A DNA stretch of 64,000 nucleotides from Morinoia aosen. Its lineage: Eukaryota > Arthropoda > Malacostraca > Amphipoda > Talitridae. The stretch is taken from NCBI GenBank assembly GCA_030386875.1, contig CM059559.1, positions 60,650,392-60,714,391 on the forward strand, written 5' to 3'. This document shows, piece after piece, positions 7,701-36,720 of this stretch. The position numbers were made by a program, and so were the translations under genes. A model generated the notes under the pieces. The model was not told the origin of the DNA. It made no database searches and saw nothing but the letters and a program-made list of their open reading frames with translations. The first letter of the stretch is position 1. Each line of letters opens with the position of its first letter.

Positions 7701-9177
7701 GCCTTTAGCATCAAAGGCAACATAGTGATCTGCTTCTAGATGGAACATAGTTAGATAACTGTTGACAAATTAAAGGTGGGGTCCGCTATTCTCTTCTAAA
7801 ATCTACGTTCTCTCTTCTCGGAACTCAAAGAAATTCAGGTAGTTGAACGTCTATGATAATCGCTCAACTGGCAGAAGGGGTATACATATAGTACTTAGGA
7901 AAGAATCATTTTCAGAACTGTATACATACGTTTTTATAGAAGAAAAATTTAGGAGTGTAATAATGTTATCCGTATACGGTGTATATTTTGCTATAACTAA
8001 CATGTTAGACGAAATATTTTCAAAGGCGTAGCTAGTATAGGTGCCATTCCTTTTCTAAAGATTCTCATTCCGGGTTCTGGTGCACACACTGTGTACTTCA
8101 CTCTTGCTGGTGCTAGTCTTGATGGCATACTGAAATTAGGCTGAAGACTAATATTTAGTCAGGAGAACGGAATCACACAAGCTAGTGTTAAAGCTAGGTC
8201 TCAAGTTTTGGTTGGAGATCATAAAAAGCCCGCGTCTGGCAAACTGAAAAAGATCAGGTTGCCACGTATGTATGTATGAGCCAGGAAATTGGGTACATTC
8301 AAGTGTTTGGTTGCAGCACGGGTTTTGACTTCCGTGAAATTTAATCGTTTCCATTTCTTGAATGGTCCATAATTGCAGAAACTCTGGTAATTGTATCATT
8401 TAGAACTATTAGGGGAGACACAGCTGGAGTAAGTCCAACTTTCAGGATGAATTTGCGTTACTCGGCGTACGTTTTCTTCATGACCTTATTTCTCAACCAG
8501 AGTAAAATAATCACGCAATTTGATGCGTCTTTGAGGAACACAGAGAGCATCGTTTGGTTGCAACTTTTTCCAAGTCGGAACTTCGACACTTGAGAGAGAC
8601 TGGTCAAAATTATAGAAAAAATGGTCAAAAAGGGAAAATTTCTTCGTTTTAGTAAATGATTGCTTACTTTAAATAGAAGAATTTAACAAATGCCAAATTT
8701 CAATTTCATTCAAATTTGTTAGAAAAGAACGATAGAAAACCAACAAATTTCTTTGCTATGAGAGGGACACCAAGGCTAACACGTGTGCCCCACACTTTTA
8801 CGGACGGATATTTATTGCATCAAATTTTCTCAACTTCCTAGAACATATGAACCAGGATATAAATACAAAAATACAATTAAGAACTAGTTCAACTTAAAAA
8901 TGTGCCTCATTAATCATATCCACAAGATATTTGATAATCAAATGCTACACGAAAAGTGATGCATGAGTAACTCACTCTATTTGAAATTGATGTTGAGAAA
9001 CTGTGAATTACTGACATTTTACTAGAAATTTTAAGCTCCCAGCCTCAACAAAGACGATCACACGAGCAAAGAATAGGGACCATCTGGTTCGGACCGTAAT
9101 AAGAAGGGAAACTATTCACTAGGTGTCTTTACAACCACGACACGCTGCGCTGAGTATATTAGAAAAATTAATTTGAA
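4763..9177. other. Unassigned; possible untranslated exon sequence
   Basis: No coding gene is recognised. Around 4920-5400 the sequence is richer in CpG and contains CCGCCATGG at 5336-5344, but that ATG is followed by a stop after five codons (M-E-A-V-T). A plausible splice acceptor (pyrimidine tract ending TTGCAG at about 5677) opens a 20-codon frame that stops at about 5738. These could be parts of a 5' untranslated region of a plus-strand gene, but nothing ties them together. From 5800 to 9177 I see nothing repetitive or coding. Confidence 0.25.
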
Positions 9178-9535
9178 CCTCTCTAACCATTAAAAAGGTG
9201 TTCCAGGGAGATGTAAAAGGAAGGTACCACTTACTAAGGCGATTAAGGAACAAGGAATCTATGCACAAGATTTGTTCCTACACAAGATCCCCTGCAGAAA
9301 CGGTAAGCAAAGAAAAGCGTTTAAGAAAAAGATCAACGTTGTAGAAAACATTCAGTTATGTTGAAATGCAAGACAGCAGACCAAAAATAAATTATCCAAA
9401 ACAAAACACTAATTTTTTTCTATTTAAACAAAAGGAAGGCCTAACATTCACCTCGGGTCCTCACACTCTCCTCCTGTGAGCGCTAATTCCTATCTGACAA
9501 TAGTTGTATCCTCCTGAGGGAGGATACAACGTGGC
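9178..9535 (+). repeat. R350 retroposon, old copy
   Basis: Matches the ~350 bp family found about 16 times in this window: 'GGTGTTCCAGGG', 'GGAATCTATGCACAAG', 'AGGAAGGCCTAAC', 'GAGCGCTAATTCC', 'AATAGTTGTATCC'. The right end forms a perfect hairpin in which GTTGTATCCTCC pairs with GGAGGATACAAC. Confidence 0.7.
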
Positions 9536-10117
9536 ATCTCCTTCATCCCCACAGAAACGTCATTTTTTATAAGAGATCGTTCAAGATTCCCCAGCCACAA
9601 AAAAGGCGATCTCATAAGAGTAAAGAAAAAAACAAATTTAGTATAGATTGCGGAAAACTGGCAATTTCTCTTACAGAAGAAAACTTCCTCATAGAAACAG
9701 CAAGTTAGGAAGGAAAAGAAAGAGATGAAAAAGACGAGATATGGAAGAACATAAGAAAACAGAAATCAAAGAGGACACTTATGAAAGTAGTCCCAAAGAT
9801 CTATTAATAGGTGAGGCAACTTACTGACAGCAGCCATTTGAGGGTACCAGGCCTGCTACATAAAGCCTATCCTATGTCCCTTCAGGGGAAAACCCGGAAA
9901 TGTTAGGTATTCATAATACCTTTGAATGACAGATGAAGTTAAAAATGTATCCGTTGTAATCTAATCTGCCAACAGCCATAACGTATTATTCTCACAAATC
10001 TCAAATTTTTTCCCTCTAAAATAGAGCTACACAAATGTGTAGCGAGTGCCGAGCGCAGAGCTTTACTGCCAGAGTACTGGAGAAATTATCAGCGAGCAAA
10101 GAAGCAAAAGGATTTGA

Positions 10118-10400
10118 GAAGTTAGTTCAAGTTTCCCTCATCACAACCGAAGTGTTATAAAATGGAGGCACCACGTAGAATAAAGTTTAGGGAACAGGGA
10201 ATTTATACACCAAGTCTGTTCCCGCATAAAATCTCTATCTCATAGCTGTAAGTTAAGATATAAGTTCATGAAAAAAGATAGAAGTTGAAGGAATAAAAGG
10301 TGCTGAAAACAAAGCTTGTTTTGTTTAATAAACAAAAAACCTTCTATTTGAACAAAAAAAATGTAACCATAAGCTAGGGATCTCACTTGCTCCAAAAATA
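10118..10400 (+). repeat. R350 retroposon, diverged and 3'-truncated
   Basis: Shares the landmarks TTAGTTCAAG-TTTCCCTC, GGAGGCACCACGTAG, TTCATGAAAAAAGAT and AGGTGCTGAAAAC with the R350 family. The GAGCGCTAATTCCC end is missing. Confidence 0.55.
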
Positions 10401-11333
10401 CATTAGTGGCATCATACTACTGTAGTGATTACAGGAATTTAACCTGGTAAAATTCAACATGTGAAAAAATTCCATACTTTCTGCATTGTTTACAACTATC
10501 CAATACTTTTATATTGATATAGATTTTTTCAAAAAATGATTACTCCTAAACCACTCTAACTTGCAATAAACAATACTCATACGTAAGGATAGGCCAAATT
10601 TGCAATAAAACACGGAGTAGGCTATTCTTAAGGTAAAATATTTCAAGAATCCTTTTTATGCAGCGAATGTTAACACAATAAGGTAAAAATATCTCCAAGC
10701 AAGACATTCACGGTGGACGTAAAAAAGCTCCTACTCAAAATGTAATAAGTTTTCAGCAAACGCTGCACCTTCACCGAAGTTGACCTTGATCAGTTCGTTT
10801 CTAGAAATACGTTTGAAATTTTTTCGATACCCAGCACTGTAGCACAGTACAAAAGAAACGGCAAGCATATGAGCCACTTAACAAGCATATGAGCCACTTG
10901 TGCCATGTTTGCCACAAAAAAGCGGTTATTTCACAAAGATGGCAGAAATGGTAGAAATCGTCAACACCAATCAATACATACAAGAAATCAAAAGTATGAA
11001 ATAGCGCATTGAGAAGGAAACTCAACAAAATGCGATAAAATTGACAACAATGAAGGTGGATATGCTACTCAAAATAATGAGGGATAGTCAGAATAGCACA
11101 AAACATAAGGCACTAACATGACCCGTTCTCTAATCCACAATGCATCACAGAGAAGTTCTCAAGTAGAATGATGCCATTCGTTGAGCACTCGGTAGAACAA
11201 TGTTGGGCGATGAGCTAATTTGGATTCTTACGAGATAGTGGCTCAAAATCTATAATATAAAGGAGAGTATAATATACATTGTGATAAATACAGCGATTGA
11301 AAAACGTTTACCCAGGTCAACAGATATATATCA

Positions 11334-11339
11334 TTTAAT
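11334..11339 (-). promoter_or_regulatory. Possible poly(A) signal of CHMP2B
   Basis: TTTAAT on the plus strand reads ATTAAA on the minus strand, about 100 bases downstream of the CHMP2B stop codon. It is the commonest variant poly(A) hexamer. No canonical AATAAA is nearer, but such hexamers are frequent in AT-rich DNA. Confidence 0.35.
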
Positions 11340-11438
11340 AATTTATAAAACAATACGAACAGTACGTACAGGTTAATCTTGCAAAAACTACCATGGATCA
11401 AGAATGGAAGGGAATGGAATGATTCGAAGAGCCACAAC

Positions 11439-11656
11439 CTATGTAGCACGTAGCTTGGCTAAGCTTTCCATGAGCTGCTCGTCTGTCATGCCATCTTTCT
11501 CGAAGCCAGCACCCATAGTTTGGGAGACGGGTGCAGGCGCCCCTCTCACAGCACCTCCGATCTCGATACCAATCTCTTCAAGCACCTGGTTGACGATGGC
11601 ATCTCCTTCTTCTTCATCACCCGATTCGTTGAGGATGTCATCCATAGTGTCATTAA
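11439..11656 (-). CDS. CHMP2B: CHMP2B coding exon 5 and stop
   Basis: Preceded by TTCCAACAG; the first two bases complete a Val codon. Encodes residues 143-214: the acidic helix ([19 protein letters not shown]), [11 protein letters not shown], a Pro/Ala linker (APAPVSQTM), and the VPS4-binding tail [11 protein letters not shown], ending at TAG 11441-11439. Confidence 0.94.
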
Positions 11657-14600
11657 CTGTTGGAATAAAAATATTGATTGATGATGGCAATAACTGAACG
11701 CGAAATTCTACATTTTACTTCTGTACTAATTCTAATTTTGATATCAACAATAAGGACAGCCCTTCAATTTTCAACAAAGTTATCAAAAACGCGGAAGTTC
11801 TCGACAGAAAAATTTCATGGAGTAGGAATAACATAAATTTTACATCCGTTATGACTAGACCCATCTTACCTTTAATACTTGGACATAAAGGAATTGGCCA
11901 GTTTAAACTCATCTTCGGCGAATTTGTGAAAGAACACCCAATATCGATGACTTAAAAACTTACTGTTTTGTTGAACTCATATTATTAAGTTTGGCAGAAA
12001 GTCCTGGGGAGTGTTTTCGTAAGAAAAAGACGACAATGGTTCAGCAGATTAGATTAGACGATAGTTTAAGCCTTCCTAACCGCAACTAGGGCGTTCCAAA
12101 GAGAAAGAGGATGGCATCATTTAGTATAGACCTGAGGAAACGTGCAATCTACGCCTAAGCTGCATAGAAAAAGTAAGAAGAGAAAAAAGTTCATGAAACA
12201 AAAAAATGAAATTCTTTCTTCTTCAATTGAAGAAGAAAGTAGTAGGCTGAAATACAGTAGAGCATTGAACCGTAAAAAGATGGTCCCTAACAAAACAAAA
12301 AACATTGTTTCAACGTAAAGAAGGCCTACCTAACCTCTAGCTTGGGACTTCACATTTTCCCCATGGGAGTGCCAATGGTTTAGTAGAGCAAAGAACTTTC
12401 AACCTAATGTGGGATATAAAGAAACGGACTCATCTCACCTTATTGAATGTGGTTTCCATAATGTAGGTAGATTAGATTGTATATTAGTTTAAGCCTCCCT
12501 CACCGCAACAAAGGCATTCCAAAAAGAACAAGGCAGCATTTAGTAAAGACTTGAGAGAACGTGGAGTTCAATGCACGCACGAGGTGCGTAGAAAAAGTAA
12601 GTTGAAAGAAGACCAAGAAGCAAGATAAATATTGAAGATAATAAATGCTGAAAATATATAACAGTTCGCTGAAAAATAGGATGGTGTACAAATAGGTTAA
12701 ATTAGAGGTTAGTTAGTTTAATATCCATAAGCCTTAAAAAAGTGTTCCGAAAAGAGGAAGGAGGAAGGCACTATTTAGTATGGACTAACATGGAACTTAT
12801 GCGGAAGGGGCATAAAAACAGTGAGTTGAGAAAGAAGTAAGAATTTTATAAAACGAGATAAAAGTTGAAGAAGAAAGTAGTAGGCGCTGAAGAACATGAC
12901 AGCAGTGAACCGAAAAAAGTCATCCTTAACATAACAAGAAACATTTTATTTCAACAAAAAAAAGGCCTAACTAACTCTCAGCTCGGTCCATCACACATTT
13001 TCCCCTGGGAGAGCTAATTTCCATAAAGACAGTAGTTGTTTCTCCCTTAGGTATGGCAAAAAAAGATTAGGAACGAAGTGAAGAAAAGGAATCGAAATTA
13101 CAAATTACGGAAATTATGATAGACTAAAAGAGATGTTTGTCGGTCAAACAATAAAATGAACCAGAGAAAAATAAAATGATGACAACTAGCAACAACGGTA
13201 GAACTTTAATGACCAATAATATGGAACTTATAACTGATGCTTTGCTGTAGCATGAAATAAATTGAAGGGTCATAACATGAGTTTTTCGTTATCCATTTAA
13301 TATTAAAAAACGGAAAAATTGTATAGAGAAAATCATTGAAAAAGATATTGATGCAAAACCTGAAGCAGTCAGTCGACACACTTTTGTAGACATAAAAAGA
13401 TAATCAGGAGAGAATAGAGACTGCGTACCACTCTCTGAAAATTCATTCAACTACTTCCATTGATTGACTCGATTTCGAATGGTTCAATATTTAAGTTGAT
13501 TCCGGAGAGTAGACATTCGTTGGTTCTTAAAAACATTTGCCATTGAGAACAAAGTTCTTGCTGAATTCAAATTGAATGTATTATCATGCACATCCAATAG
13601 CTGGGTCATAAAAAACTCACCTATTTCGTCGGTCATGTTCAGCTGAGCTGCAGCTTTTTCGAAATTACGCATATTTTGGGCAACAGCTTGAGGATTCATT
13701 ATTTTATTCATGGACTGCATTGAGGTTGTTGCAGACTGCATTGAGTTCGCGAGCTGGTAACTAGCTCCCATAGCCTTCTGTTGGCAGCTGATGCCAGTTA
13801 TCTGAAATACATTATTATTATTATTATATAAGAAAGTTTTAGCCTCCCTTAACCACGACAAAGATGTTCCACGAGAGGAAAGAGGAAGGCACCATTTAGT
13901 ATGAAGTTGAGGGAACGTGGAATTTATGCACAAGGTGCACAGAAACAGTAAGCAGGAAAGAAGTTCATGAAACAAGAAAAAAGTTGAAGAAGAAAGTAGT
14001 AGGTGCTGAAAAACAGGACAGCAGTGAACCGAAAAAAGATGGTCCGTAACAAAACAAAAACCTATTTTATTACAATAAAAAGGAAGCCTACCTAACCTTT
14101 AGCTCGGGCCCACACATGGTTCCCCTGGGAGCGCTAATTCCCATAGATACAATAGTTGTATCCCCTTGAGGGGTATCTGAAATACATACAAAATGCCACT
14201 CGATGAATAAGATGATTATCCAACGGCGTTTACAAAATACGAATGTAAATTGACAAATGATAATAGTTACTTTTCAATAGAAAAGTACTACAATACAATA
14301 GCATCGTCAGAGTAACAGCCTTTGGATGCCACACTGCATTGGAGACTGTTCGTATTCTAAAACATAGCTGGAACTCAGATCTCGGAATAACCTCTAGCTG
14401 GAACTTATGGCTGCTAGAATTTTTCTGAGAACCGGAATTGACGCACATTGAGGTGATTTTTTCATCTCCGGAAAATGATATGTCACAAAAATTTAAATCA
14501 GGCAAACACAGAGCTTGGGGAACTGCAGGAACGGTTTAACAAGTGAAAAACTCGTTTACTACAACTACAGCGTGACAGGTTACATATATCGTGATGACAC

Positions 14601-17600
14601 ACTCAGTCGTTGTTTAGTCGTACGTGTACAACCTTATTTTGGATTTTCTTCCAAAAATTTTGGGGTAGAAGTGTTCATTTTTCTGTTTTGCCCATGAAGC
14701 AGGAACTATTTGTCAACTTTTTCATGGCTATCATCTGATCTCCAATTTGCTTATTTTTTGATATGGTACGGTACGCTTTGGGAACGTGACATACTTGAGC
14801 TCATCCTCTCCCAAGAAGTTGAAATAAGTCACTTCATGCTTTGGTGGCTGGTTTCCATGTTGTACTCAAACATCCAAGTCTTGTTACCGATAGTGAAAGG
14901 TTCTAGAAAACTGGAATAATTTTCAATTGGTTCAAAAAAGTCCAGAGACCTTTCTCTCTAGATATTCTTTCCATAACGTGAAAGGTTTTTGCAACTATTT
15001 TCGCGCACATTCTTATATCTCCGATTCGAGAGTCAAAGTCTGTTGAACGGTAATATGACCATGTAACCATTCCTTGACTATTCTGATCCACATCAGACGA
15101 TCTGAATGCACTAGATCTCGCTTTCTGTAGACGTTCTGTCTTGGAGATGAAGGCATCGTGGCTTTTCTTAAATGGGAAGTTTTTTCTGAAAAGGCCTTCA
15201 ACCACCCCAAAATTGAGGTTTTGGTTAAACAGTGCCAGTGTAAGCTTCCTGGAAACTTCCAAAAGTTTCTTGAGTTATGAGGTGGCGGTTGAAATAGTAA
15301 CTGATAGCTATGGTTGCTAGGAATCAATGCCAATCATTTTTACGATCTAGAAAAATACTTCTAGAACAAGAAAATTGTTATGGCCAACCAACGAGCGAGA
15401 TCCAACTCGCACTGCGAGCGAATCCCATGTTGGTCAACGACCATTTGAAGTAGTCTCTCCAGGGTTGCTAGATTGTTTAATTCAATATTATAAAAAGTTC
15501 CCACTCCTCCCCTGCGTATCACCGATACCGACCGCCTGGTATCGGTGGAGGATATACTCCTTTCATACTCCTGGAGGAGTATAAAAGTAAGGCCGCTGCT
15601 TCACTTGCCTCAAATGGAACTCGATGGCCGAAGCAGCAACAACAACATGGCTTTACATATTCTTAAGAGTGCCTATGTTGTGGTTAGGGAGTCATGAACT
15701 TTAATAATGATCTTTACTATGTATACAGGATGTCCAACACTGTTATTCATATTTTAAAATAAAATTGGTAACCCCAGAGTGACCAAAAAACGAAACTCAA
15801 CGACTGAAGCAACAACACCTGGCCTTACAAGTGGTGACCCCAGAAGATTGACATCTTACAAACTCAACCAACAGTGCCAGTCTCATTTCTTAGTTTACAC
15901 TCGGTTAACTAAATTCAACCAACACCCAACTCACTGACGCCTCTCGCATACTTGGGAGTAGTGAAATATCAATTCAGTGTCATATGAAACTTGAAGTAAA
16001 GTATATTTTCTAATCAAGTCCAAGTACTTAGTAAAAATTAAATTACTACATAAGTGAATAAAACATAAGCAACAAACTAGTTCGTCTACAGCTTAAAATC
16101 TGTACGTATTTGTACGTAAAAATCTGTACGTATAAATCTACAGCTAGAATTTGTACTACTCGACTATTTTGAGTAGTTGATATTGAGGTCTAAGACTTAG
16201 TAAATGCGATCCAATTTAAGGGGGTCCTCCGGATTGAAAATTTTTTTGATCCGATTGGTCTGAAACTTGGTGAGTATATGTAGTTTTGCCAGACAAACAT
16301 ATTTAAACTTGAAAATTTTTGATTTAGGCTTTAGTTTTTCTGAAAAATTTGAAAAATAGGTTTTTTGGGTCATTTTTATGCATATTTCAAAAGAATAGAA
16401 GTCATTGAGTTTTTATGCTAGAACAAATTCAAAGACAGATTTGGAATCCTTGAAACATTTCTAACAAAGATATATTCGGGGATTTTGCATTTTTTTTTTA
16501 ATTTTTTTTATACGTGAAAATTTACCAATGAATAAAAAAAAACGAAATTTTTGGATTTGAACCATTATAAAAAAAATGAAATGTAAAAATGGAAAAAAGG
16601 GGAATATAACTTTGTTAGAAATGTTCCAAGGATTCCAAAACTGTCTTTGTTTTCTTCCTAGCATAAAAACTCAATGACTTCTATTCTTTTGAATTTTGAA
16701 AGTAAGTAACTTTACAGTATAGGCCAAAAACTAAATTTTTTGTTTTAGTGTGATATAATGGAAAATTTATGTTTTTGAATGCTGTTTTCATTTTTATTTC
16801 GATTATCTCCATGCATAACATCATATTCACACTGTGAATTGTAATTTCCAAAAAAGGAAAAAATTAAAAAATTTTTTACTTATATCATAAAAATTATGAA
16901 ATTTTTTGTTTTCAGTTTGATTCTTATGAAACTTCGACTATTATATGTAACTTTTAAAAAGAAACACAATTTCTTCTATACATTTTTTTGATTCAGGTCT
17001 TAGTTTTTGAAAAAATTTGACATATTGGTTTTTAGTCCACTGGTATTGATATTTCAAAAGAATAGAACTCATTGAGTTTTCAGGCTAGAACAAAAACAAA
17101 GACAGTTTTAGAATCCTTGGAACATACCTAACAACAGTACATTCACAAATTTTTTATTTCTTCTTTTGTTTTCTTTTTATATGGGGTCGAAATGGGCTTG
17201 AAAATTTAAGATTTTGGTCCCCTTACCCCCCCCCCCCTGGGGGGGATCTATTGTCCGTAGCGCCATAAAATTTTAGGACCGAATAGTCCACCACCTAAGG
17301 GTTCTTGTCCAACAATAAAATGAAAAATGACCATCGGAGAGAAAAGGGACCCCCTTAATCAACTATTGTTAATTAGTGTAGATTTACGGAATAGGTCTTC
17401 ATAATTAAATTACACGTTACAACAACAAGCGCTCTAATACAGAAGTTTTTGATAAATAATTAACAAAATAACAGGTGAACGATGATTTTACGACGTACTT
17501 CAGAGTTCGTACTAAACCTTGCTTCAAATCCATAGAAAATAACATTTCTAAACCACCATTAATAACGCACTAATGATGACGTTCGTCTTTCAGCATCTAA

Positions 17601-20600
17601 ACAAAATTGATCAAAGTAAATTAATCAAGCTTCCCTACCTACAACAAAAGTATTCTCAAGGAAGCAAGGAAGAAGGCACCATTTAGTATGATTAAGTTTA
17701 GAGAACAGAGACTCTACTCACATTGGGTGTTCCCAATGAAGACTCCCAACGCATAAATACAAGTTAGAAAAAAGTTTTGAAACTTGATAAAAGCCAAAAA
17801 AATTCATAAAGAGAATTACAGGAGCTGAAAAAACGGAAAGCGCTGAACCAAAAAAAAGAGGGTCCATTCTATTTTATCATTCTATTTCAACAAGAGGAAG
17901 GCCTTCATAAACATCAACACGGGAACTCACATTTACCATTTAGAAGAGCTTATCCCCATTGACACAAAAGTAGTATTTCACCTTAGACGGTTCTAAGGAG
18001 AAATACTACAACGAAGAATGTAAAAGTTGGCAATATGCATAAAATTATCGAGGAATTTCACCCACAAGGTAATGGCTGCCAAACTTAACAAAACATTGAA
18101 CATGTTTGAGCGTACAAAAGATGCTTTCATTCAGAATAGGAAAATGTGAGATACAATGAGAGATATTCAAAGTAAAAAAATCTACCGAATGTGTTTAAGT
18201 GAAAAAATAAAGAAAAAGGTACTTGGTGAAATTCTGAGCGTTAGCTTTCAAGGAAGGAAGACAGCAGTGAAACAATTAGCACAACTCTTACCCTCGTAGC
18301 ATTACGCTCAAGATAACCAAGAAAACCTTCATTGAAATTTGGTCAATGCTAGGGAAGAACATTTTGAATAAATCTTTCCATTGCCTAAAAACAGATTGGA
18401 CGTTAGTTTAAGCTTCCATAACCGCACCCAAGGCGTTCCAAAGAGAAAGAGGAAGGCACCATTCAGTGTGGACTTAAGCAAACGCAAAATCTATGCAGAA
18501 GATGCATAGAAACAATTAAGAAAGAAGTTCCTGAAACAAGACAAAAGTTGAAAAGGAAGAAGTAGGCGCTGAAAAACAGAAAAGCAGTGAACCGAAAAAG
18601 GTTCATAACAAAACACCCTATCTATTTCAACAAAAGGACGGCCTACCTAACTATTAACCAAGGGACCTCACACATTCTTCCTTGGGGAGCTAATTCCCAT
18701 AGATACTAGAGTTTTATCATCCTGAGGGATAAATTCCTGCGTAAGTTAGCTAGAAATGATAGTGATTACTTCAGGCCAAGAGATTCAGGAGATGCATCTG
18801 GAAATATGTAACTAGCAAAAGCTAGCAAAAAATAAAATACAAAAACCCCACTCAATTGAGTTCTTCAGCCCACAATAACAGGCAAGAACATGTTTCACTT
18901 CTAATGAGACATGCATCATGCATACCGTTTCTTAAAATTCGAACATTCTTTAGTCAGAATTCTGTTAGAAAAATTAAATTGAAAAATAGAAAGAAATATT
19001 ATAAGAAAGAAATTCTTACTACGGTAATATGCACAGAAAAGTAAAACACGGGATAATGTTTTGTTTTGGCTCCACGTGTACGCTTATGTTAAGCAACATC
19101 ACGCATGACACGGCAACTCCAAGCCTCGCTTTTTTTTTAACGAAGGTAAAACGACACAAGTAACAACACGTTTTCAGTAGTGCTTCCAGTTGACGATGCT
19201 TTGGTAGAATGACAGAAATTTGAGTCCAGCATCACACTCACAATAACTTACATAATTTATTGAACTAAGAAGAAAAGGTAAAGCCTTTCAAGCTCACCTT
19301 GCTCTGTGCGGTATAGGACCGAGTCTTCTGCTTCCTGACTACCCCCAGTTGTTTTGCGAGGATTCGAAGGGCCTCTTGATTACCAGGAGTCTTGGCAAGT
19401 TTCTTGATTTCAGCTGCAACATACAGATTTCTGATGAAATTACAGAGCATTAAGACGAAAAACTACACATCCTCAACAATCAGGCGTTCTACACAACTAG
19501 AGCTACACTCGCTTTTTGGCTACCAAGTCGCAAAAGCTAACAGTTCCATTGGTCTCAGCCGCAATTAAGTCTCAGCAATTTTAGTAAACAACATATATCA
19601 AGCCAATTATATTCCTTGTTGAGTAATCTTTGCCTTCAATATATTTCCCATCGAATTTGACGAAGATTTAAAAAAAATGAGAGAGAGATGAATACTTCCA
19701 TCTTCTACCAGGTACATACCCAAACCTTGTTCTCACAGATATCTATTTCTAAGAAAGTATTGACATGATCAAACTTTAAATCAAGTTTTGATGTTAGTTA
19801 CATTAGGGACTCTAGCTGCCTACTTCACATGCATTCAATTTCTCGAAGTTGAATACGCGCGTTCAATAGCTAACCTCTCGAAAATCACATGCTAGCAAGA
19901 ATAGCTCTTGACCCACAGAACATAGGAATAAACTCAGGTAACAAGTCCCTGTCTTAAGAAATTTTCCCGTATCCACAAACAAAGAACATTCTGAGTTATT
20001 TTTTGCATCAAATATATTTCAGTTTTCTTTACCGAGATCTGTGCCTCCACTGTTATGAAGGAGGTAAGACCATGCTGCATTTTGGCTAGACTACGAAATT
20101 TTTGGCAAAAATATGGCGCTACAAAGCTGGAAAAATTACCAGAGGTTAAGCTTATTTTACAGTTAGGCTAGCAGATTAGATAAGATTAGTTTAAGCATCT
20201 TTGGCTACAGCGGTGTTAAAAAGGAGAAAGGCACCATTTAGTGTACAATTAAGGGAAAGCCGAATCTATGCGCCATATGCGTTCTTACACAAGATTCTTT
20301 GCGTATAGAAGCAAAAAAATCTGGGAAACGAAATAGAAGTTGAAGAAGATTAAAGGTACAGAAAACAGAACACCAGTATAGTGGGGAAAAATTATATGTA
20401 ACAAAACAAATAACCCGTTCTATTCCCCCCTAAGGATGACCTACCTAACTCTCAGCTTGGGAATTCTAATTTAATCCACGGAAGGAATGATTCCTTTGAT
20501 ACAAGTTATAATCCCTTGATGGACTGTCCCACACTGTAATACAAGTATTTAGCTCATTATGGCTTACAGCTTTGTTTCATATTATATTAATGCTACACTA

Positions 20601-23600
20601 CAGATCATTTTTGCTAGCATGTGATTTCTTGCAGAGTTAGGCTCAAGCTTGCGATAATTTTGTTTGAAAATCACAAGTTTCCTCACATTGCAAACCAATC
20701 CTTAAATTCAAAAATCAGGGTCTGAAAAGTCAACGTGAAGTTGCCTGGGTCTCCGCATTAGATCTCATGGCAGGGCAAGACAAGAAAAGAACAAAGACGC
20801 AATAGGAATATCCCCTTCATATCAAAAGAATGAACCAATAGCTTAATATTTTGATACTACAACTTGAAGAAACACACGTGGAAGAAAAGATGATATTAAT
20901 TACACCAATTACACTTTGATTGCTTACCAAAATCAAATCACAAATGAACAGTTCTAGTTTATTGGCAGTTAGAGTAGAAGAGGCAAAATCATCTTTTCCA
21001 TTCAAAAAGTTTCCAGTCTTGGCATTGATCATCGTAATGAAGACTAAATTAGAGTTCAGTTTAAGACTCAAAACCTGCAAAAAAAGTGATCAGAAGAGAG
21101 GAAGGCACCATTTGGTATGGAGAAACAGGAACGCAGAATCTATGCACAAGGTGCATAGAAACTGTGAGTTTAGAAATAAGTTCATGAAATAAAATGAAAG
21201 TTGAAGAAAAAGTTGTAGGTGCTGAAAAATAAGATAGCAGTGAACCAGAAACAGATGGTCCTCAATAATACAAAAAACATTTTACCTTAAAAAAATGAAG
21301 GCCTACTTAACTCTCAGCTCAGGACCTCACATTTTTCCTCTGGGAGCGCTAATTTACAAATATCCGATAGTTGTATTCCCCTGAACAAGGACCGCATTAG
21401 GTTTAACACTGTACAATATGAACCACAAACAAGTTTCTAGTGACAAAAATCAATAGTTTCTTTTCAAGACACATCAGTGTACAGGCTTTTGTTTTTAAAT
21501 GAGGCCATGAATGAGGCCACGCAGAAAAAGTTTCAGAGTTTTCAAATTCTGATAGATTTTCTACAGCTACATGGGAATTCTTCGTAGATAGATAGCTATA
21601 TTCCGACCAGAATGAAATACCCAAATGAAATAATTATTATTTTATTATTATATTATTAAGAAAGTTTTAGCCTCCCATAACTGCACGAAAAAGATGTTCT
21701 AAGAGAGGAAGGCACCATTTAGTATGGAGTTGAGAAAACGCAGAATCTATGCACAAGGTGCACAGAAACAGGAAGCTAAGAAAGAAGTTCATGAAACAAG
21801 AAAAAGTTGAAGAAGAAAGTAGTAGGTGCTGAAAAACAGGACAGCAGTGAACCAAAAAAAGATGGTCCGTAACAAAACAAAAACCTATTCTATTTCAACA
21901 AAAGGAAGCCTACCTAACCTTTAGCTAGCGTAATCGCATATTGTTTGAGCATTTCCTTTCGATAGCACCGGTGTCACAAGCTCTGAACCCCAGTATGGTC
22001 GAGTTGACCATTGGAAACACCTATCAAGGGCACGATTCAGGGTAAAAAATAAGTCTGTAGGTTATTGATGAATTTTTCTGAGATATTTATCATAGGTGTA
22101 AACTGTTACGAATATTCTTTTAACATGTGTTTCTTTTCATAAATTTGCAAAAAAGATTTTTTTAAATAAAACATGAAAAAATATGTGTAGCACAAAATGA
22201 TTCTTCTTCTACAATTTTAAACTTACAGAACTGAAAAAATGTTTTTTAGATGGCTAATTGTCTTGTCTATCGATCCGGTGCAAATGTTTTTCGATAATTT
22301 GATTTCTTGAATTTTCAGCATTTTTTTCCAAAAATCGACCACTTTTTTTCGCTTTTTCAGAATATTTTGCTTATAATTTTCAACATAAATTGAAATTGAA
22401 AAAACTTTTGCACCGCTTCTCTAGATCTTTTTAATCACTATTGATTTATATGTTTGCAATCCCTCTACTTTTAAAACTGTGGGAGAAGAATAATTTCAAA
22501 GGTCACAAAGTAGAGTTTTCAGGAGTTTTTTTTCTTTCTTTCTTAACTTTTGAATCAATCCTTCTTGTAAAACAAATTCCACTGTTTTTGTAGCTCTATT
22601 TCAGTTCTATCAATTGATATATCAGCAATTCCTGTACCTTCAAAATTGTGGGGAAAGGATCCATATCAAAAGTCAATAAATTCAAGTGTCAGAACAGCAT
22701 TTTTTTAGAAAAATGTTTTTTCATTACAGAATAATTTTTTTCAAAATCAGCTCTATTGCTTTGTAGCTCTTTTTGAGCCCTTTCGATTGATGTGTTTGCC
22801 ATTCCTGTAGCTTTAAAACTCCGGGAGGCGATTATGTGTTTACACAACAAGCTAATTAGCTGATGACTCAGCTACTGAACTCAAAACAACTACTCAGACA
22901 ATCATTAATTATCACTGAGTAATAGAATGTTTCGTTTGATTATGAAAGCATTTCAAGCAAAGCCATGAATGAAAATTTTTTCATTCCCATTGAGGAACAC
23001 TCAAAACTGACTCGTAATAAGGGGGGAAGGAGGAGGTCACCCATCCATTGGCGCGTCCCAAGGTCATGCTAGTGAGCGTCTTCTACACCGTCTAGGAGAC
23101 GAACCAATGGACGTACTTGAGAACTAATTATATCGTCGGATGCGCAAAAAATTCTCTATAAGAATAATTCATAAACCAAAAACCTTCCATTATTTAGAAG
23201 TTGACCCAAACCGTGCCCTTAATATCCCCGCAGTCTGGCTATTGAAGACACTTGGGTGCCTCAGTAAGGAGGCACAACCAAGTTCCTCGCATATTGGATG
23301 TAACTTATTTATTAATGGGTAGTCATGTGATGGGTAGTCATGTGTTATGTGTGATGGGTAGTCATGTGTGTGATGTAATGGGTAGTGCTTCACACAAGCT
23401 TTAAGGGAAGCGAATACTATTTCCTATGAATTCTTTTAGAAATAAATGAAAAATACTTCCGTAGTGAAATAAGCTCTCGGGTATTCACAGTATGTTTATA
23501 ACATTCCACTGAACAGTTGTAGCCCATAAAGTTTTGGGATTGCGATTCTAAATGAACATTATCTACAAAAGTTTGAGACTGTTTTTTGATATTGCCTCAG

Positions 23601-26600
23601 AAAATCTTCCCACATAATTTAGAATTTTTAAAATTAAATTTTTTTTGGAATAAAAAAATTTCTAATCAACTAATCAAAAAACTATCTCTGAAACTTATAG
23701 TACTCACCTTGATCTTTATAATTCAAAAAAAAAAAGATCTCCACAGATGAAAAATTGTAGCTGGAATTGCCCCTCAAAACCAAAAAGCATAATCGGCCAG
23801 AGCGGACTGCTGCATTTGATATTTCAGGCATTTCACAGGACGCAGAAGCACAAAACCACTCACTAAGACCACTAAACCTCTCTAATGAATGGACAGTTGT
23901 ATGAAAATGAAGAAAATTTTTTTGGAGCAGCCAGCCCCAGTTAAGCAGAGCCGCAGCTGGTCTCTCTGAGCGCGTCTACGGGGGAGGGGGCAATTTGGGG
24001 GTAATTATGATAGTTTGGGTTGCCAACACAGGACAAATAACGTTTCTACGTGATAAAAGAAGGGTTTAGGAGCATTTTCAAGCAATAATTTCATTTTCGG
24101 TTTACGGCCCCAGAAAACCGTTCGCTTCCCTTAACTTCAATTTGGACCTACATATGGTTACATGATTACTTCAGGTCAGGTAAGTTGTAGGGCAAAAATT
24201 CATTTTTCCTGAGATGGGAACTTTTCAGTAGGTCAACGGACTTGCTCTCCGTGGGTGGAAGGTGGCTTGACTTCTGTGGAACACCAAATTCCAATTTGAA
24301 GCTATAGCTTTCATTCATGAAATGATTTTTATTTGCAAGACGTTACAGCTGGATTTGGCTTTCACTTTTCACTCGCGGGAAAGAAGTGGGTAAAGACGTA
24401 AACCCCCCACAAGACACATCACAGAGGACCATCACACAAGGTAGTTACTTCGTGACCATCATGGGTTGAATGTCAGTGCTCAAAGGGACAATCCAGAGAT
24501 TGTTGCATCTGTTCCAATCCTCATCAGCTGTAAAAATCTTATCAGAAAAACCTTGGTCATGTTTTGCCATTCCTGTAGCTTTAAAACTCCGGGAGGCGAC
24601 TATGTGTTTACACAACAAGCTAATTAGCTGACTTGTCTTCAACCTGTTCAAAACTTTCTTGCAAACCCTCTAAATGAACTTCTATGCCTTATTAAATAGG
24701 AGATGCTTCTTACCAAGTGCTACTCATATAAACTACTGTACTAATATAAACTGTTTGCTGTCCTAAAACTTGACCTCAGAAAGCCACAAAAGCCAGTGTA
24801 AATCAACAATTTTTCTGAAGGCTAAATGAAGTCAGTAATTATGAAGTAATAGCTGGTACATATATTCTGATCAGAAATGGCTATAAGGAATACTTCAAAA
24901 GCATTTTTAAATACTTATGAAAAAAACCTAAAATGGCAGCAAAAACTCACCTTCTAATTTTTTTTCTTCTCTTTCCAATTCATTTCTATTCCGAGTGACA
25001 TCTCGTCCTGCCTTCCTTAGCTGTTTTTCATTTGTTCGAATTTGATCTGCAGAAAGAAAGATCATGAATATTATGATTCTAAAAATCATTTGGAGCTACT
25101 TTTCAAAAACACAATAAGCTTGTCACACAAGATTGGAAAAGAAGCTCAAGCTTTTCATGAGCTAATAAATAATATAAAATGAAATATAAAATGACCAAAT
25201 AATATTTATCATATATTTTAATGATGAAATACAATGCCACTTCACATCGTTGCTTGACTCAACATCAAATTTCTGCAGTGAATTAGAACTAAAAAGCAAA
25301 AATATTACAGACTTTTTGTGAAGTATGTACCCAGTTCAACAAATACAGTTCAAATTGTAGCCACAACTGATACTACCATTTCCTACAGAGATGTAGCACT
25401 TCAGCAAGCATGAAACAAATATTTATTTCCTAGATATGCTTAGATATGGTGATATAAGTCGTGCAGTGGCAAAAAGGTACCAAGTCCCACTGAGGGCAAA
25501 ATTTTGTTATTTTCCCATCAGCTGCTCCTGGTCTAGATCTACATTATCAAGTGGATGAAGCACCTGTCTTAAACCATCCTGTAGGCTCCAAAATTCCATT
25601 GTTTACAATGGTATGTAGTTCTTAGTGACTTCTTGGTGACTTAAACCTCATTTTCTGGCAAATAATACAGTTGGCACTTAAGCCCTTCTGCCACAGCACA
25701 TTATTTAAAATATTAACCTCAGTGTGTTTATTGAACAAAAATTGTAACAAATTTGGAAATAACGTGCAAGTAATTTAGATAGCTTTTCTAGTTCACAAAA
25801 ACTGTAGAGAACATGATTTTTTGCCATGTGCAGTACATGAATGAAGAAAAAAAAACACATTGAAACATACATCTCAAAGTTGTAACTGTATTTATGTACA
25901 CTTGAACCACCACCAGAAAATTCACAACAAAGTTTTCAATTTATAGAACATAATATTGGAATATTTTCCAAGACATGTTTCTTCTCTCTGTAACGAGTAA
26001 CACCAACACAATTAAAAGAAATCTTAGGAACAAGATTCAAAAGCAATGAAGAGTAAGAGCTCTACTTTTATTTACTAGGAATATAACGCTAACAGGCTTT
26101 AAAAATACCTATGGAAGCACTAAATCTCCCTATACTATAGACCATTCAGGGAATTGCATAATTTGATCTGGATGACAAAAGGGAGACATAGTCAAAGACA
26201 TTGCTGAAAAAATGAAAGGTTTTAAATTTCTCTTTTACAAAGCAGAGAATGATACATCCATTCACCATCTTCGGTATGATGGTGAATATTGCTTGACAAT
26301 TTCTTCCTGCTTACATATGGTTTCAAGGATATTTGTGTAGGAGAAGCAAAGTCAGTGCCAATACAGCAAATAACTGAACTAGCACACAAATCTACACTAC
26401 TCAAGATGAGGTACTTTGGTTACTAGTGAAAGATTATTACACATTGAATCAGGCATCGCAAAATAAGCTTGATTTTCGAAAGCCCAATCCACTATAATTT
26501 TAATGAGCTTTTTACAAAAATTTTTATTCAGAGATTTTTCCATACCTTTTGTTTCATTACTGACCCTTGGTAGATGAATGAATAGAACCTGAATTACAAT

Positions 26601-35600: not shown

Positions 35601-36720
35601 TCCTCCAGTCTACAATGGTTTATACATTGACAGCACATCCACATGGACCGAGATTTGATTTCTTGAACATTTGAGTACTGTGGACCCCCACTATACGACG
35701 TTAATCCATTCTGGAGTTGGGATTGAGGGCAAAATCATTGTATTACGAGCCAATAGCACATTGGTATCTTAGTGACACCGGCCAATGGCATACCAGCATC
35801 TTATGACATATGCAGTGACGCATATAGGGACGTATAAGCATGGTGTGATGCTCGCACATTTATACGCACGCACACTAACCCCCAGCTTTGAATTTTGGAA
35901 TTTTTTGGCTGTGCAAGAGAAATTGTTGATGGCGTAAAGCAGGAAAAATGCCAAAACAAGGCGATAAAAACTTCTTATTCTACTTTGTAACGTGAAAAAA
36001 GGGTAAGCTAGGGACACCGTAGCACAGGGATGATGGTGTCCTATCCTAAAAACCTTTATCTCACACTTGACCTTGGGCCCACAGCATCTGAATTGACTCA
36101 CAAGCACAATATGCCCGTGTTTCCAATCAACAATACAACCTAAGATACGTCATTTTTTTGTTCTATTGTGTTTTTCTGAAAAGTATAGATTACTGGTATA
36201 ATATTGTTGTACAATTTGCTAGGTAAGTTTTTTCTAATAATTGAAATTCACTGACATTCACTGCTTGTGGCGAGAGTTTCAAAATCAGAATGAAATGAAT
36301 GTCTAGGAAGATATTTTTACCATATCTTACAATTACATTCAAGCAAGTGAAACTGCAAAGTGACTTTTATCACTTTGACCTTTATTGAACTAACAAATAT
36401 TGCAGCACTCAAAAATACTACAGAAGGAAATAACAGTTGGAAATTCAAACAACACTTTTGATTTGTTGGTACTTTAGGTGTTCGACTTATAATATGGATA
36501 GATTTTCCATAAAAATACATTAAAATTCAGTTATACTAACAAATGTGATCCAAAATATAAATTAAAAATATGTGCACATATATGTTTGGGACAATTTTTC
36601 AACATAGGATTTCAATTCTCTTACATGCCTGTGAATAAGAATGCCATAATACCACAAGAAATCATTCACAGTTCTTGATTACCAACCTTTGACAGATGTC
36701 TTTTTTCCAAAAAGACTCAT
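11439..36720 (-). CDS. CHMP2B: CHMP2B, ESCRT-III subunit (five coding exons, spliced)
   Basis: Charged multivesicular body protein 2B, a subunit of the ESCRT-III filaments that remodel and cut endosomal, midbody and nuclear membranes with the AAA ATPase VPS4. It is cytosolic and assembles on membranes. Coding exons: 36687-36720, 24951-25046, 19298-19413, 13621-13801, 11439-11656 (34, 96, 116, 181, 218 nt; total 645, i.e. 214 residues plus stop; human CHMP2B has 213). Phases fit at all four GT-AG junctions. The Snf7 fold is seen as a basic N-terminal half ([19 protein letters not shown] at about 44-62, RKQKTRSY at about 71-78) and an acidic C-terminal half ([20 protein letters not shown] at about 145-164, [11 protein letters not shown] following). 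The last residues, [14 protein letters not shown], form the MIT-interacting motif that binds VPS4. The [21 protein letters not shown] block is closer to CHMP2B than CHMP2A. The introns (about 24.6 kb) are packed with transposons. Non-coding 5' exons may lie further upstream. Confidence 0.93.
12044..12385 (+). repeat. R350 retroposon
   Basis: Starts at CAGATTAGATTAGACGATAG and runs through GGCGTTCCAAAGAG, ATCATTTAGTATAG, GAAGGCCTACCTAACC and CCCATGGGAGTGCCAATG. It lies in CHMP2B intron 4 and the terminal hairpin is lost. Confidence 0.75.
12462..12690 (+). repeat. R350 retroposon, right end missing
   Basis: Starts at GTAGATTAGATTG, includes TTTAAGCCTCCCTCACC, AAGGCATTCCAAAAAG and CACGAGGTGCGTAG, and breaks off after ATGCTGAAAATATATAACAG. 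Confidence 0.65.
12694..13053 (+). repeat. R350 retroposon
   Basis: Full-length but diverged: GGTTAGTTAGTTTAATATCC at the left, GGAAGGCACTATTTAGTATGG, AGGCCTAACTAACTCTCAGC, GAGAGCTAATTTCC and GTAGTTGTTTCTCCC at the right. Confidence 0.75.
13621..13801 (-). CDS. CHMP2B: CHMP2B coding exon 4, with duplicated acceptor
   Basis: Begins at ATA (13801) right after ATGTATTTCAG (13812-13802) and ends before GTGAGT. Encodes residues 83-142: [12 protein letters not shown], then [20 protein letters not shown] and [17 protein letters not shown]. Only 11 bases of original intron remain before the exon; beyond them lies a retroposon (13813-14173), and a second copy of the same acceptor sits at 14187-14177. 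See the findings for the consequence. Confidence 0.93.
13813..14173 (+). repeat. R350 retroposon with 14 bp target duplication at CHMP2B exon 4
   Basis: Flanked by TATCTGAAATACAT at 13799-13812 and again at 14174-14187. The left end is an (ATT)n tract, the right end is GTATCCCCTTGAGGGG. A variable-length duplication with a simple tract at one side suggests target-primed retroposition with the tail at the left, i.e. the transcript strand is probably the minus strand. The family lacks a clear tRNA-like head. Confidence 0.88.
15376..15829 (+). mobile_element. LTR of a Ty3/gypsy-type retrotransposon
   Basis: A 454 bp LTR-like segment beginning TGTTATGGCC and ending GGCCTTACA. It has a TATA box (TATAAAAG) at 15580-15587, preceded by a short palindrome (ATACTCCTGGAGGAGTAT), and AATAAA at 15758-15763. 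Two bases after its end is TGGTGACCCC, a primer binding site. The internal region cannot be followed far past about 16000 and no second LTR is present. Confidence 0.7.
15580..15587 (+). promoter_or_regulatory. TATA box of the LTR
   Basis: TATAAAAG lies in the middle of the LTR, directly after a short inverted repeat. Confidence 0.55.
15832..15841 (+). promoter_or_regulatory. Primer binding site, tRNA-Trp type
   Basis: TGGTGACCCC is complementary to the 3' end of tRNA-Trp (...GGGGTCACCA). CsRn1-type gypsy elements are known for this primer. The match is only to the first ten bases; the following AGAAG departs from the usual GACGT. Confidence 0.6.
16216..17358. mobile_element. Foldback element, family A, bounded by TTAA
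   Basis: Starts TTAAGGGGGTCC and ends GGGACCCCCTTAA, so both sides read inward from TTAA. A ~90 bp block with CAAAAGAATAGAAGTCATTG occurs near 16388, inverted near 16690-16608, and direct again near 17050. A CCTTAGGTGGTGGA block and a C/G-tract hairpin near 17226-17246 match the copies at 1061 and 63828. No open frame. Confidence 0.75.
17620..18010 (+). repeat. R350 retroposon, with long terminal hairpin
   Basis: Contains AAGCTTCCCTACC, AAGGCACCATTTAGTATG, AGGAGCTGAAAAAACGG and GAAGGCCTTCATAAAC. The right end pairs GTAGTATTTC with GAAATACTAC and CCTTAGA with TCTAAGG around a short loop. Confidence 0.7.
18395..18740 (+). repeat. R350 retroposon
   Basis: Starts at CAGATTGGACGTTAGTTTAAG; includes GGCGTTCCAAAGAG, AGTAGGCGCTGAAAAACAG, GGCCTACCTAAC and GGAGCTAATTCCCATAG, ending near ATCCTGAGGGAT. 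Sits in CHMP2B intron 3. Confidence 0.75.
19298..19413 (-). CDS. CHMP2B: CHMP2B coding exon 3
   Basis: Preceded by GTTGCAG and followed by GTGAGC. Encodes residues 44-82, [19 protein letters not shown] followed by [20 protein letters not shown], the helix 2 region with the basic KQKTR patch typical of CHMP2. It ends on a codon boundary (phase 0). Confidence 0.93.
20163..20530 (+). repeat. R350 retroposon
   Basis: Starts at AGATTAGATAAGATTAGTTTAAG; landmarks AAAGGCACCATTTAGTG, GATGACCTACCTAACTCTCAGC and TACAAGTTATAATCCC. Sits in CHMP2B intron 2... that is, between exons 3 and 2 positions 19414-24950. Confidence 0.7.
21080..21386 (+). repeat. R350 retroposon, 5' part missing
   Basis: Begins inside the family at AAAGTGATCAGAAGAGAGG, then AAGGCACCATTTGGTATGG, ATGCACAAGGTGCATAG, AAGGCCTACTTAACTCTCAG and ATAGTTGTATTCCCCTG. 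Confidence 0.7.
21640..21925 (+). repeat. R350 retroposon, right end missing
   Basis: Has the (ATT)n left end, then AAGAAAGTTTTAGCCTCCC and ATGCACAAGGTGCACAG, and stops after CCTAACCTTTAGCTAG. Very close to the copy at 13813. Confidence 0.75.
22385..22830. repeat. Tandem ~170-180 bp modules
   Basis: Three diverged modules begin near 22420, 22591 and 22765. Each has GTAGCTCT(T/A)TTT, then a TCNATTGAT block and a CAATTCCTGTA or CATTCCTGTA block followed by CTT(C/T)AAAA. The same module occurs in opposite orientation near 52169, 52349 and 52533. It has no coding potential and lies in CHMP2B intron 2. Confidence 0.55.
22795..22863 (+). repeat. 69 bp direct repeat, copy 1
   Basis: Identical at 68 of 69 bases to 24563-24631; includes CTCCGGGAGGCGA and CAACAAGCTAATTAGCTGA. 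See copy 2. Confidence 0.85.
23020..23110 (-). repeat. 5S rRNA-like fragment (tentative)
   Basis: On the minus strand the sequence reads GGGACGCGCCAATGGATGGG followed by TGACC, resembling the 3' half of 5S rRNA, where GGATGGGTGACC is nearly invariant. Upstream similarity is loose. It could be a 5S-derived SINE head or chance. Confidence 0.25.
23316..23390 (+). repeat. Minisatellite, GGGTAGTCATGTG units
   Basis: Four tandem, imperfect copies of (AT)GGGTAGTCATGTG with variable TGTGATG spacers. The adjacent minus-strand open frame (23190-23393) is a by-product of this repeat. Confidence 0.75.
24563..24631 (+). repeat. 69 bp direct repeat, copy 2
   Basis: Near-identical to 22795-22863 though the flanks differ, which is unusual in this otherwise diverged intron. 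Confidence 0.85.
24951..25046 (-). CDS. CHMP2B: CHMP2B coding exon 2
   Basis: Preceded by CTTTCTGCAG at 25056-25047 and followed by the donor GTGAGT. It encodes residues 12-43 (D)[20 protein letters not shown] and onward to EREEKKLE, the first long helix of the Snf7 core, and ends one base into the next codon. Confidence 0.92.
26518..26774. repeat. Tandem duplication, period 129 bp
   Basis: Two adjacent copies (26518-26646, 26647-26774) of a unit with TTTTTATTCAGAGATTTTTCC, ACAATAAAACAATACCAAAC and GTTTGAATGAGTATATCC, differing at about a tenth of positions. It creates an apparent repeated peptide in a minus-strand open frame (26397-26789), which I do not regard as a gene. Confidence 0.85.
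27040..28275 (-). pseudogene. Penelope-like element reverse transcriptase remnant
   Basis: Reading the minus strand from about 28210: [16 protein letters not shown] (the 'L...Q..VL..G.KF' block before the polymerase domain), then after gaps [20 protein letters not shown] and VESLI (like VSFDVVSLFT), [17 protein letters not shown] near 27535-27490 (like TDGVAMGSPLSPVIAN), [10 protein letters not shown] near 27430 (the catalytic YVDD box), [11 protein letters not shown] and [13 protein letters not shown] (like FLDV..T.VYRKPT), and [11 protein letters not shown] near 27075. Order and spacing match Penelope-like reverse transcriptases. Several stops and frame changes; no GIY-YIG domain seen. It lies in CHMP2B intron 1 and its upstream side is cut by a Tc1 element. 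Confidence 0.8.
28446..30030 (+). mobile_element. Tc1/mariner-type element
   Basis: Starts CAGTGGGATGCAAAATTAT at 28448 and ends in the matching inverse TTTTGTCCCCACTG at about 30028, followed by TA. The ends are alike over about 45 bases with mismatches. At ~1.58 kb it has the usual size and carries a broken transposase. It interrupts or abuts the Penelope-like sequence at its left. Confidence 0.75.
28815..29690 (+). pseudogene. Tc1-type transposase, heavily mutated
   Basis: Recognisable pieces: the N-terminal KPQTGHL region near 28960, [12 protein letters not shown] near 29250 (second catalytic Asp region of the DDE domain), [16 protein letters not shown], a degenerate NPKRTA near 29530 (DNDPKHTA in active enzymes) and [15 protein letters not shown] near 29610-29655 with the final Glu. 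Multiple stops and frameshifts. Confidence 0.8.
30035..30520 (+). mobile_element. Tigger/pogo-type element, 5' fragment
   Basis: Starts CAGTGCAACCTAGGTTAG just after TATA. From 30242 a frame reads [15 protein letters not shown], then after one frameshift [20 protein letters not shown], the CENP-B-type helix-turn-helix of pogo/Tigger transposases. It ends where a TTAA-bounded MITE begins at 30526. Confidence 0.65.
30526..31066. mobile_element. piggyBac-type MITE (TTAACCCTTTGGGTAC ends)
   Basis: Left end TTAACCCTTTGGGTAC, right end GTACCCAAAGGGGTAA with the final base of TTAA mutated. No coding capacity. 541 bp. Confidence 0.65.
31162..31530 (+). pseudogene. Tc1-type transposase, N-terminal fragment
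   Basis: [20 protein letters not shown] and [20 protein letters not shown] match the paired-type helix-turn-helix of Tc1 transposases (SDFERG.IVGARLAGASVTETA). After a stop at about 31327 the next frame still reads [20 protein letters not shown], the following linker. The catalytic domain is absent because a hAT-type element begins at 31650. It is distinct from the 28446-30030 element. Confidence 0.8.
32410..33170. repeat. Foldback insertion with perfect 83 bp arms
   Basis: Inverted arms of about 370 bp. The centre is perfect: 32668-32750 pairs base for base with 32760-32842 around a 9-base loop (ACCATCTTG). Outer arms match imperfectly (GGGGAAATGAAGCATTCCG at 32416 and its inverse near 33160). 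The centre is GC-rich and repeats CCAAGATGGCGACC on both sides. Confidence 0.9.
33296..34501 (+). mobile_element. piggyBac-type element with 18 bp perfect terminal repeats
   Basis: TTAACACGTTAAGTGCGG at the left is exactly inverted at the right. The host unit elsewhere reads TATATTAATATCCATG; here it is split exactly at TTAA with TTAA on both sides, the hallmark of piggyBac insertion. Subterminal CCACCGGTGG or CCACCTGTGG motifs occur at both ends. Most of a transposase is missing. Confidence 0.85.
33807..34031 (+). pseudogene. piggyBac transposase-like acidic N-terminus
   Basis: ATG at 33807 opens [20 protein letters not shown] and an acidic serine-rich stretch ending SPDEFES at TAA 33933-33935. 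Reading past that stop in the same frame gives another acidic stretch ([18 protein letters not shown]) to 34031. Such acidic N-termini precede the catalytic core in piggyBac transposases. The core itself is absent, so this is an internal-deletion derivative. The identification rests on element context and composition, not on a catalytic motif. Confidence 0.5.
34975..35215. repeat. Palindromic module inside hAT-type element 1
   Basis: Arms of about 115 bp (AGTGGTGGCAGATAACCCAC at 34965 and its inverse at 35220) flank an AT spacer. The same palindrome occurs at 41815-42075 in element 2, so it belongs to the element. Confidence 0.85.
35679..36130 (+). mobile_element. Tigger-like element end
   Basis: Contains CTGTGGACCCCCACTATACG followed by ACGTTAATCC, a pattern typical of Tigger/pogo termini, and matches 45175-45460 along about 300 bp (GTGACGCATATAGGGACGTAT; TTTTGGAATTTTTTGGC). 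No transposase motif is left. Confidence 0.55.
36687..36720 (-). CDS. CHMP2B: CHMP2B coding exon 1
   Basis: Encodes [11 protein letters not shown] plus the first base of an Asp codon, then the donor GTTGGT at 36686 downward. MSLFGKKT matches the start of CHMP2 proteins, where the hydrophobic/basic N-terminus touches membrane. At 34 nt the exon is easily missed; the following base of the next exon completes GAT, which confirms the join. Confidence 0.9.

Follow-up and report, generated by a model that had tools for sequence, protein, structure and literature searches.

A probable retroposon insertion that appears to have duplicated the splice acceptor of exon 4 in an amphipod CHMP2B gene

In the stretch of DNA analysed here (64,000 nt, referred to below as the window), the acceptor of exon 4 of CHMP2B is found twice. 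ATGTATTTCAGATA forms a perfect 14-bp duplication around a 361-bp repeat copy and holds this acceptor, an arrangement that supports an insertion with a target-site duplication by which the splice site was doubled. In the explanation that we consider rather probable, a retroposon inserted at the border of intron 3 and exon 4, the proximal acceptor would still be mainly used and give the normal protein, a third site within the element, with an exon start at 14005, would contribute a minor product, and transcripts spliced at the distal acceptor would be decayed. The gene likely still makes its normal protein, and some altered versions would be expected as well. The locus offers a natural test of the choice made by the spliceosome in a conserved gene, between two identical acceptors 375 bp apart and the third site of the element.

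The CHMP2B gene and its product

The gene lies on the minus strand, and its coding exons were assigned by homology and translation. They comprise the coding part of exon 1 (36687..36720), exon 2 (24951..25046, acceptor TTTCTGCAG followed by ATC), exon 3 (19298..19413), exon 4 (13621..13801, with homology to amphipod CHMP2B), and the coding part of exon 5, which carries the C-terminal motif (11442..11656). Joined via 13801, the five coding exons encode 214 residues without a stop, exon 3 passing in frame into exon 4, and the 170 residues of exons 3–5 contain the Snf7 domain (PF03357, E 1.2e-25). This product, with its intact frame, bears out the expectation of an earlier note on this DNA that the proximal acceptor gives the conserved protein.

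Over the whole query, the protein of exons 3–5 is 81% identical to a protein of Hyalella azteca, and over 58% of the query it is 95% identical to a protein of Trinorchestia longiramus. By these matches the host is likely an amphipod related to Trinorchestia and, since the window protein and that of Trinorchestia longiramus differ at several positions encoded by exons 3 and 4, likely another species. A nematode host, which the TTTCAG-type acceptor had suggested, was rejected in view of the amphipod matches. Among the 120 matches listed of the 334 obtained in the protein search, many of the named ones are charged multivesicular body protein 2b, others are hypothetical or Snf7 proteins, and the name CHMP2a is absent. 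The best match among solved structures is CHMP2a (E 1e-9), with none of the seven matches named 2b. By these sequence comparisons the gene would be closest to annotated CHMP2B over other CHMP proteins, and it is treated here as CHMP2B. The first residue after the proximal acceptor, isoleucine, is the same in all seven relatives aligned, and five of the seven share ITGIS.

Immediately beyond exon 4, the database protein of Trinorchestia longiramus (P0016) diverges from its relatives, and the C-terminal part is missing. Its annotation is likely incomplete, the protein reading as though intron 4 had been translated.

The insertion and its target-site duplication

The word TATCTGAAATACAT has two exact occurrences in the window, at 13799–13812 and 14174–14187, and the same word search returned two further places that match it with two mismatches. 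On the minus strand both copies read ATGTATTTCAG followed by ATA, corresponding to the last 11 bases of the intron and the first three bases of the exon, which the two sites thus have in common. The proximal copy (13799..13812, minus strand) carries the AG at 13803–13802, with exon 4 starting at 13801 and the spliced product being the intact 214-residue CHMP2B. The distal copy (14174..14187, minus strand), identified by the exact match and by translation, carries an identical acceptor with an exon start at 14176. The account in the earlier note of a 14-bp duplication that flanks the copy at 13813–14173, contains these intron and exon bases, and leaves two identical acceptors 375 bp apart holds to the base.

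The DNA between the two copies is a 361-bp member of the R350 repeat family (13813..14173, minus strand), in the same orientation as CHMP2B and with a TAATAAT-type tail. It was recognized from its self-match and 17 further aligned pieces in a blastn comparison of the element body with the window, some of these pieces being parts of one copy, as well as from a 5' start shared by copies whose flanks differ and from the alignment of copies. The 14-bp word directly adjoins the element at its 5' end and recurs after the 3' tail. Here the element begins with CCCCTCAAGGGG; in two other copies, whose flanks are unrelated, the start is CCCCTCAGGGGG, and a further three begin close to this. Since this 5' start is common to copies with different flanks, the 5' border of the element is set independently of the duplication, and for the copy at 13813–14173 the border set in this manner coincides with the end of the duplication. 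None of 500 shuffles of the two flanks reached a shared word of 14 bp, and a chance duplication was rejected on this count.

No clear target-site duplication was found at the seven other copies of the family that were tested, as would be expected if those copies are older. The copy in CHMP2B has private differences from its two nearest relatives at 12 of the 273 columns compared; together, the perfect duplication and this small number of private differences point to an insertion that is not old, and by the same count it is not brand new either.

The R350 family

The element is likely a non-autonomous retroposon, judging from the 14-bp target-site duplication at the copy in CHMP2B, from the simple-repeat 3' tails (TAATAAT or CTAATC), and from the occurrence of 5'-truncated copies, three of which (b, c, and h) match the element only from position 36 to 70 onward. 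A tRNA-related head, as in a tRNA-derived SINE, was looked for in the 64-kb window, where no tRNA was found, a result that would also fit a decayed head, and no RNA family reached the gathering score on 8000–25500. An origin of the element from a tRNA or a known RNA is on these two results unsupported.

A LINE extends over three ORFs at 2519–4254 on the plus strand, the middle one with an RVT_1 domain (E 2.5e-31); the reverse transcriptase, at 2864–3799, was found by a domain scan of three of 24 ORFs. In a search for a partner LINE with a matching 3' end, this reverse transcriptase region gave no blastn match to the element, and as a partner of the R350 family it is unsupported.

The profile of the family has 18 matches between 9024 and 57981, of which 17 are on the minus strand. 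Within the span of CHMP2B all nine run in the direction of the gene, yet introns would be expected to disfavour sense copies that carry acceptor-like sites. Several matches lie close together head to tail (9024–10393 and 12055–14172), some of them perhaps parts of one copy, and for this reason the matches may not be independent. The 5' end of the element in CHMP2B (14146–14173, minus strand) contains two hairpin-like inverted repeats in tandem, CCCC-TCAA-GGGG and GATACAA-CTA-TTGTATC, which are not perfect palindromes.

Candidate acceptors and their products

Sixteen AGs from 14287 to 13801 were read as acceptors, and seven of them keep the frame. Three of the seven read into native exon 4, namely 13801, which gives the normal protein, 13843, a very weak site that would add 14 residues, and 14005, which would add 68. 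The in-frame sites 14287, 14269, and 14164 meet a stop after 6, 0, and 21 codons, respectively. The distal site at 14176 is likewise in frame, 375 being divisible by three, and is followed by 25 codons and a TAA at 14101–14099; the translation agrees with the 107-residue product that had been proposed earlier, and this product would consist of residues 1–82 of CHMP2B and 25 foreign residues. An early stop far upstream of the end of an exon is expected to lead to nonsense-mediated decay, and as the stop of the distal product lies 478 nt before the end of exon 4, decay of this mRNA is expected.

Two donor-like sites are present in the element (14092..14097, minus strand), AAG/GTTAGG with 14097 as the last exon base and TAG/GTAGGC with 14092. 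On a frequency-based score they reach 3.2 and 3.7, as compared with a range of 6.5 to 8.2 at the ends of exons 2–4 and 1.9 at that of exon 1, and in the rest of intron 3 seven and five of the 320 GTs, respectively, score as high. A short stop-containing exon that would begin at 14176 and close at 14097 or 14092 is a weak candidate.

The acceptor-like site inside the element (14006..14028, minus strand, exon start 14005) consists of a TTCAC branch-like motif, a T-rich tract, and TTTTTCAG, and it reads TGTCCTGTTTTTCAG followed by C at 14005. The frame stays open for 68 codons into exon 4, and use of this site would place 68 residues between residues 82 and 83, yielding a product of 282 residues. 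The presence of this site qualifies the view of the earlier note that the choice lies between two acceptors: both duplicates are there, but the third, internal site is the best-scoring one, in frame and open.

This site is a feature of the family, the AG being found in 12 of the 14 copies aligned (14 of the 18 profile matches); copy k is without it. Conservation around the site is good, although not the best in the element (rank 10 to 68 of 337 windows). Among the nine copies checked, one of which (copy d) is cut short and partly of unrelated sequence, the reading after the internal AG is open to the end solely in the copy at 13813–14173, with stops in the eight others. Among 5000 dinucleotide shuffles, 212 were likewise free of stops over 68 codons, apart from the one-in-three chance of being in frame, and the openness of the reading in the CHMP2B copy is suggestive at most of a meaning. 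A protein search with the 68-residue insert gave seven candidates, none with an E value up to 1, in a database without the protein of this species (best whole-query match 81%), so that the blank says little.

Strength of the acceptors

Acceptors were scored with two weight matrices, not fitted to crustaceans, and compared with those of exons 3 and 5, which are functional, that of exon 2 being left out. Among the 288 AGs of the region, 14005 ranks 6 and 11 under the two matrices, 14176 ranks 37 and 18, and 13801 ranks 139 and 45. With both matrices the proximal site at 13801 comes last of the three and is outscored by the acceptors of exon 3 and exon 5, and 14005 is outranked by five and ten other AGs. 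Of the five AGs that the first matrix places above 14005, those at 18568 and 17824 (minus strand) represent this family site in two other copies within intron 3, with no known use. A high acceptor score is no proof of use, and the sequence by itself would leave the ratio of the sites unsettled.

Pyrimidines at positions -20 to -5 number 12 of 16 for the internal site, 10 of 16 for the distal one, and 7 of 16 for the proximal one; the corresponding counts are 13 of 16 for exon 2, 8 of 16 for exon 3, and 11 of 16 for exon 5. At least 12 of 16 pyrimidines precede 24 of the 268 AGs of intron 3. The base that follows the internal AG is C, an unfavourable one after an acceptor.

The consensus of a branch point is yUnAy. 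The end of the element contributes a branch-point-like CTTAT (13828..13832, minus strand), whose A precedes the last intron base at the proximal acceptor by 27 nt without an intervening AG, and the 40 nt upstream of this acceptor, derived from the 3' end of the element, are free of AG. The distal copy has CTTAT at a similar distance, 31 nt, with one AG between. The earlier statement that an AT-rich tail replaced the original sequence upstream of the proximal acceptor is correct with regard to the pyrimidine counts of the proximal and distal sites given above, but the branch region was not simply lost, as the element supplies CTTAT. Because the duplicated sites share the last 11 intron bases and first three exon bases, any difference in their use must come from farther sequence, distance, or order.

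Mechanism and alternative explanations

Target-primed reverse transcription probably placed the element across the acceptor, with both copies of the duplication keeping ATGTATTTCAG and the ATA that follows it. The 3' end of the element would then have provided the proximal acceptor with CTTAT and 40 AG-free nucleotides in place of the sequence that was pushed 375 bp away. Exon 4 would be joined mainly at the proximal 13801, giving the normal 214-residue protein, whereas a minor share of transcripts is predicted to start exon 4 at 14005 and to carry the in-frame insert of 68 residues between residues 82 and 83. Use of the distal site is predicted to lead to the early stop and to mRNA decay, with little or no 107-residue protein formed. 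Continued use of the proximal site is favoured by the CTTAT and the AG-free stretch, together with the intact conserved reading frame, whereas its last place in the scores and its poor pyrimidine tract argue against it as the main site.

These last two features bear on the possibility that 14005 is the main acceptor, in which case mostly a 282-residue CHMP2B with a retroposon-coded insert would be made, as in the long-tailed merle alleles of dog PMEL. The internal site has the top score of the three under both matrices and the most pyrimidines, is transcribed before the proximal site, and is in frame and open, the sole open copy of the nine checked. We nevertheless consider this unlikely: 68 additional residues after residue 82 would interrupt the conserved Snf7 region, no such block is present in any of the seven relatives aligned, the relatives among the 120 matches listed of 334 are 138 to 260 residues long, the C after the AG is unfavourable, and, if the insertion has become fixed, purifying selection on CHMP2B would be expected to preserve normal splicing. 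Decidedly unlikely, too, is a more elaborate proposal, in which the 282-residue form would be a second, stable ESCRT-III subunit with an element-coded insert, its ratio to the normal form depending on how long the TAATAAT tail is that separates the branch-like motif of the element from the proximal acceptor. The distal site at 14176 could be used enough to produce a 107-residue, dominant protein resembling those of frontotemporal dementia (FTD), since it keeps its original upstream sequence, with pyrimidines at 10 of 16 positions, and has a higher score than the proximal site. This is very improbable in view of the decay expected from the stop 478 nt upstream of the end of exon 4 and of the retention of only residues 1–82, as opposed to the human FTD C-terminal truncations that lose the VPS4-binding part (PMC13374510). 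The parallel with FTD-3 drawn in the earlier note is accordingly weak, as the distal product would lose far more of the protein.

The remaining explanations concern the insertion itself. It may be a heterozygous or rare allele caught in the assembly, with the species mostly having the empty site; the perfect duplication and the 12 private columns of 273, which speak for an insertion that is not old, agree with this, and nothing direct opposes it, the copy being by the same count not brand new; we regard such an allele as improbable. A 14-bp match by chance, or an assembly error as the source of the copy, found no support and is hardly credible, given that no flank shuffle among the 500 matched the length of the word and that the border of the element is set by other copies. 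Returning to the reading preferred here, an insertion that doubled the acceptor and left the proximal site in main use, its features can be compared with those of several known systems.

Comparison with known systems

Literature searches for CHMP2B together with crustacea and retrotransposons found nothing, and further searches, taken mostly at the level of the papers listed, met no doubled splice sites in arthropods other than that of Yaoer in CHS2, described below.

Alleles of CHMP2B itself are known from FTD, where C-terminally truncated proteins arise via intron 5 retention or the stop Q165X (PMC13374510). The gene is the same, and in FTD a change at an acceptor alters the product (PMC13374510), but the exon 4 acceptor is duplicated here and not destroyed. 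Introners, in turn, show target-site duplication as a source of splice sites, with some families taking the 3' splice site from the insertion site (PMC9860276). In contrast to them, an existing intron of CHMP2B has been extended at its acceptor, and the normal protein needs no new intron.

A closer likeness is found in the merle alleles of dog PMEL (PMC7349775, PMC6091007). There, a SINEC_Cf element lies at the border of intron 10 and exon 11, in the original acceptor; the 5' end of exon 11 shows a 15-bp target-site duplication together with the original acceptor; and a cryptic acceptor linked to the element leads to an in-frame insert of 52 residues, with a normal or altered product depending on tail length. 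Both a short element, likely a retroposon, at an intron–exon border and a duplication holding the acceptor are found in CHMP2B as well, and an element acceptor with an in-frame insert would have its counterpart in 14005 with its 68 open codons, here predicted from sequence. The two cases differ in that the SINE of PMEL is antisense and its oligo(dT) tract is the proposed determinant of the ratio (PMC7349775, PMC6091007), whereas the element in CHMP2B is in sense orientation and belongs to another family. Moreover, it is the TAATAAT-type tail that adjoins the proximal acceptor of CHMP2B, the acceptor-like site is a feature of the family, and splicing is predicted.

Among arthropods, the CHS2 gene of the fall armyworm carries the LTR retrotransposon Yaoer, whose duplication GAAGG spans and doubles the donor of intron 21; one way of splicing would give back the normal sequence, and the other runs into the element and meets a premature stop there (PMC11249258). 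In both arthropod genes a target-site duplication doubles a splice site, although CHS2 involves a donor, an LTR element, a 5-bp duplication, and an allele of known effect (PMC11249258), whereas CHMP2B involves an acceptor and an additional in-frame site in the element. The doubled acceptor would be an apparent mirror case, in another arthropod, of the doubled donor of the armyworm. The kind of event is already known from merle PMEL and from Yaoer in CHS2, and what CHMP2B would add to them is a well-preserved further case.
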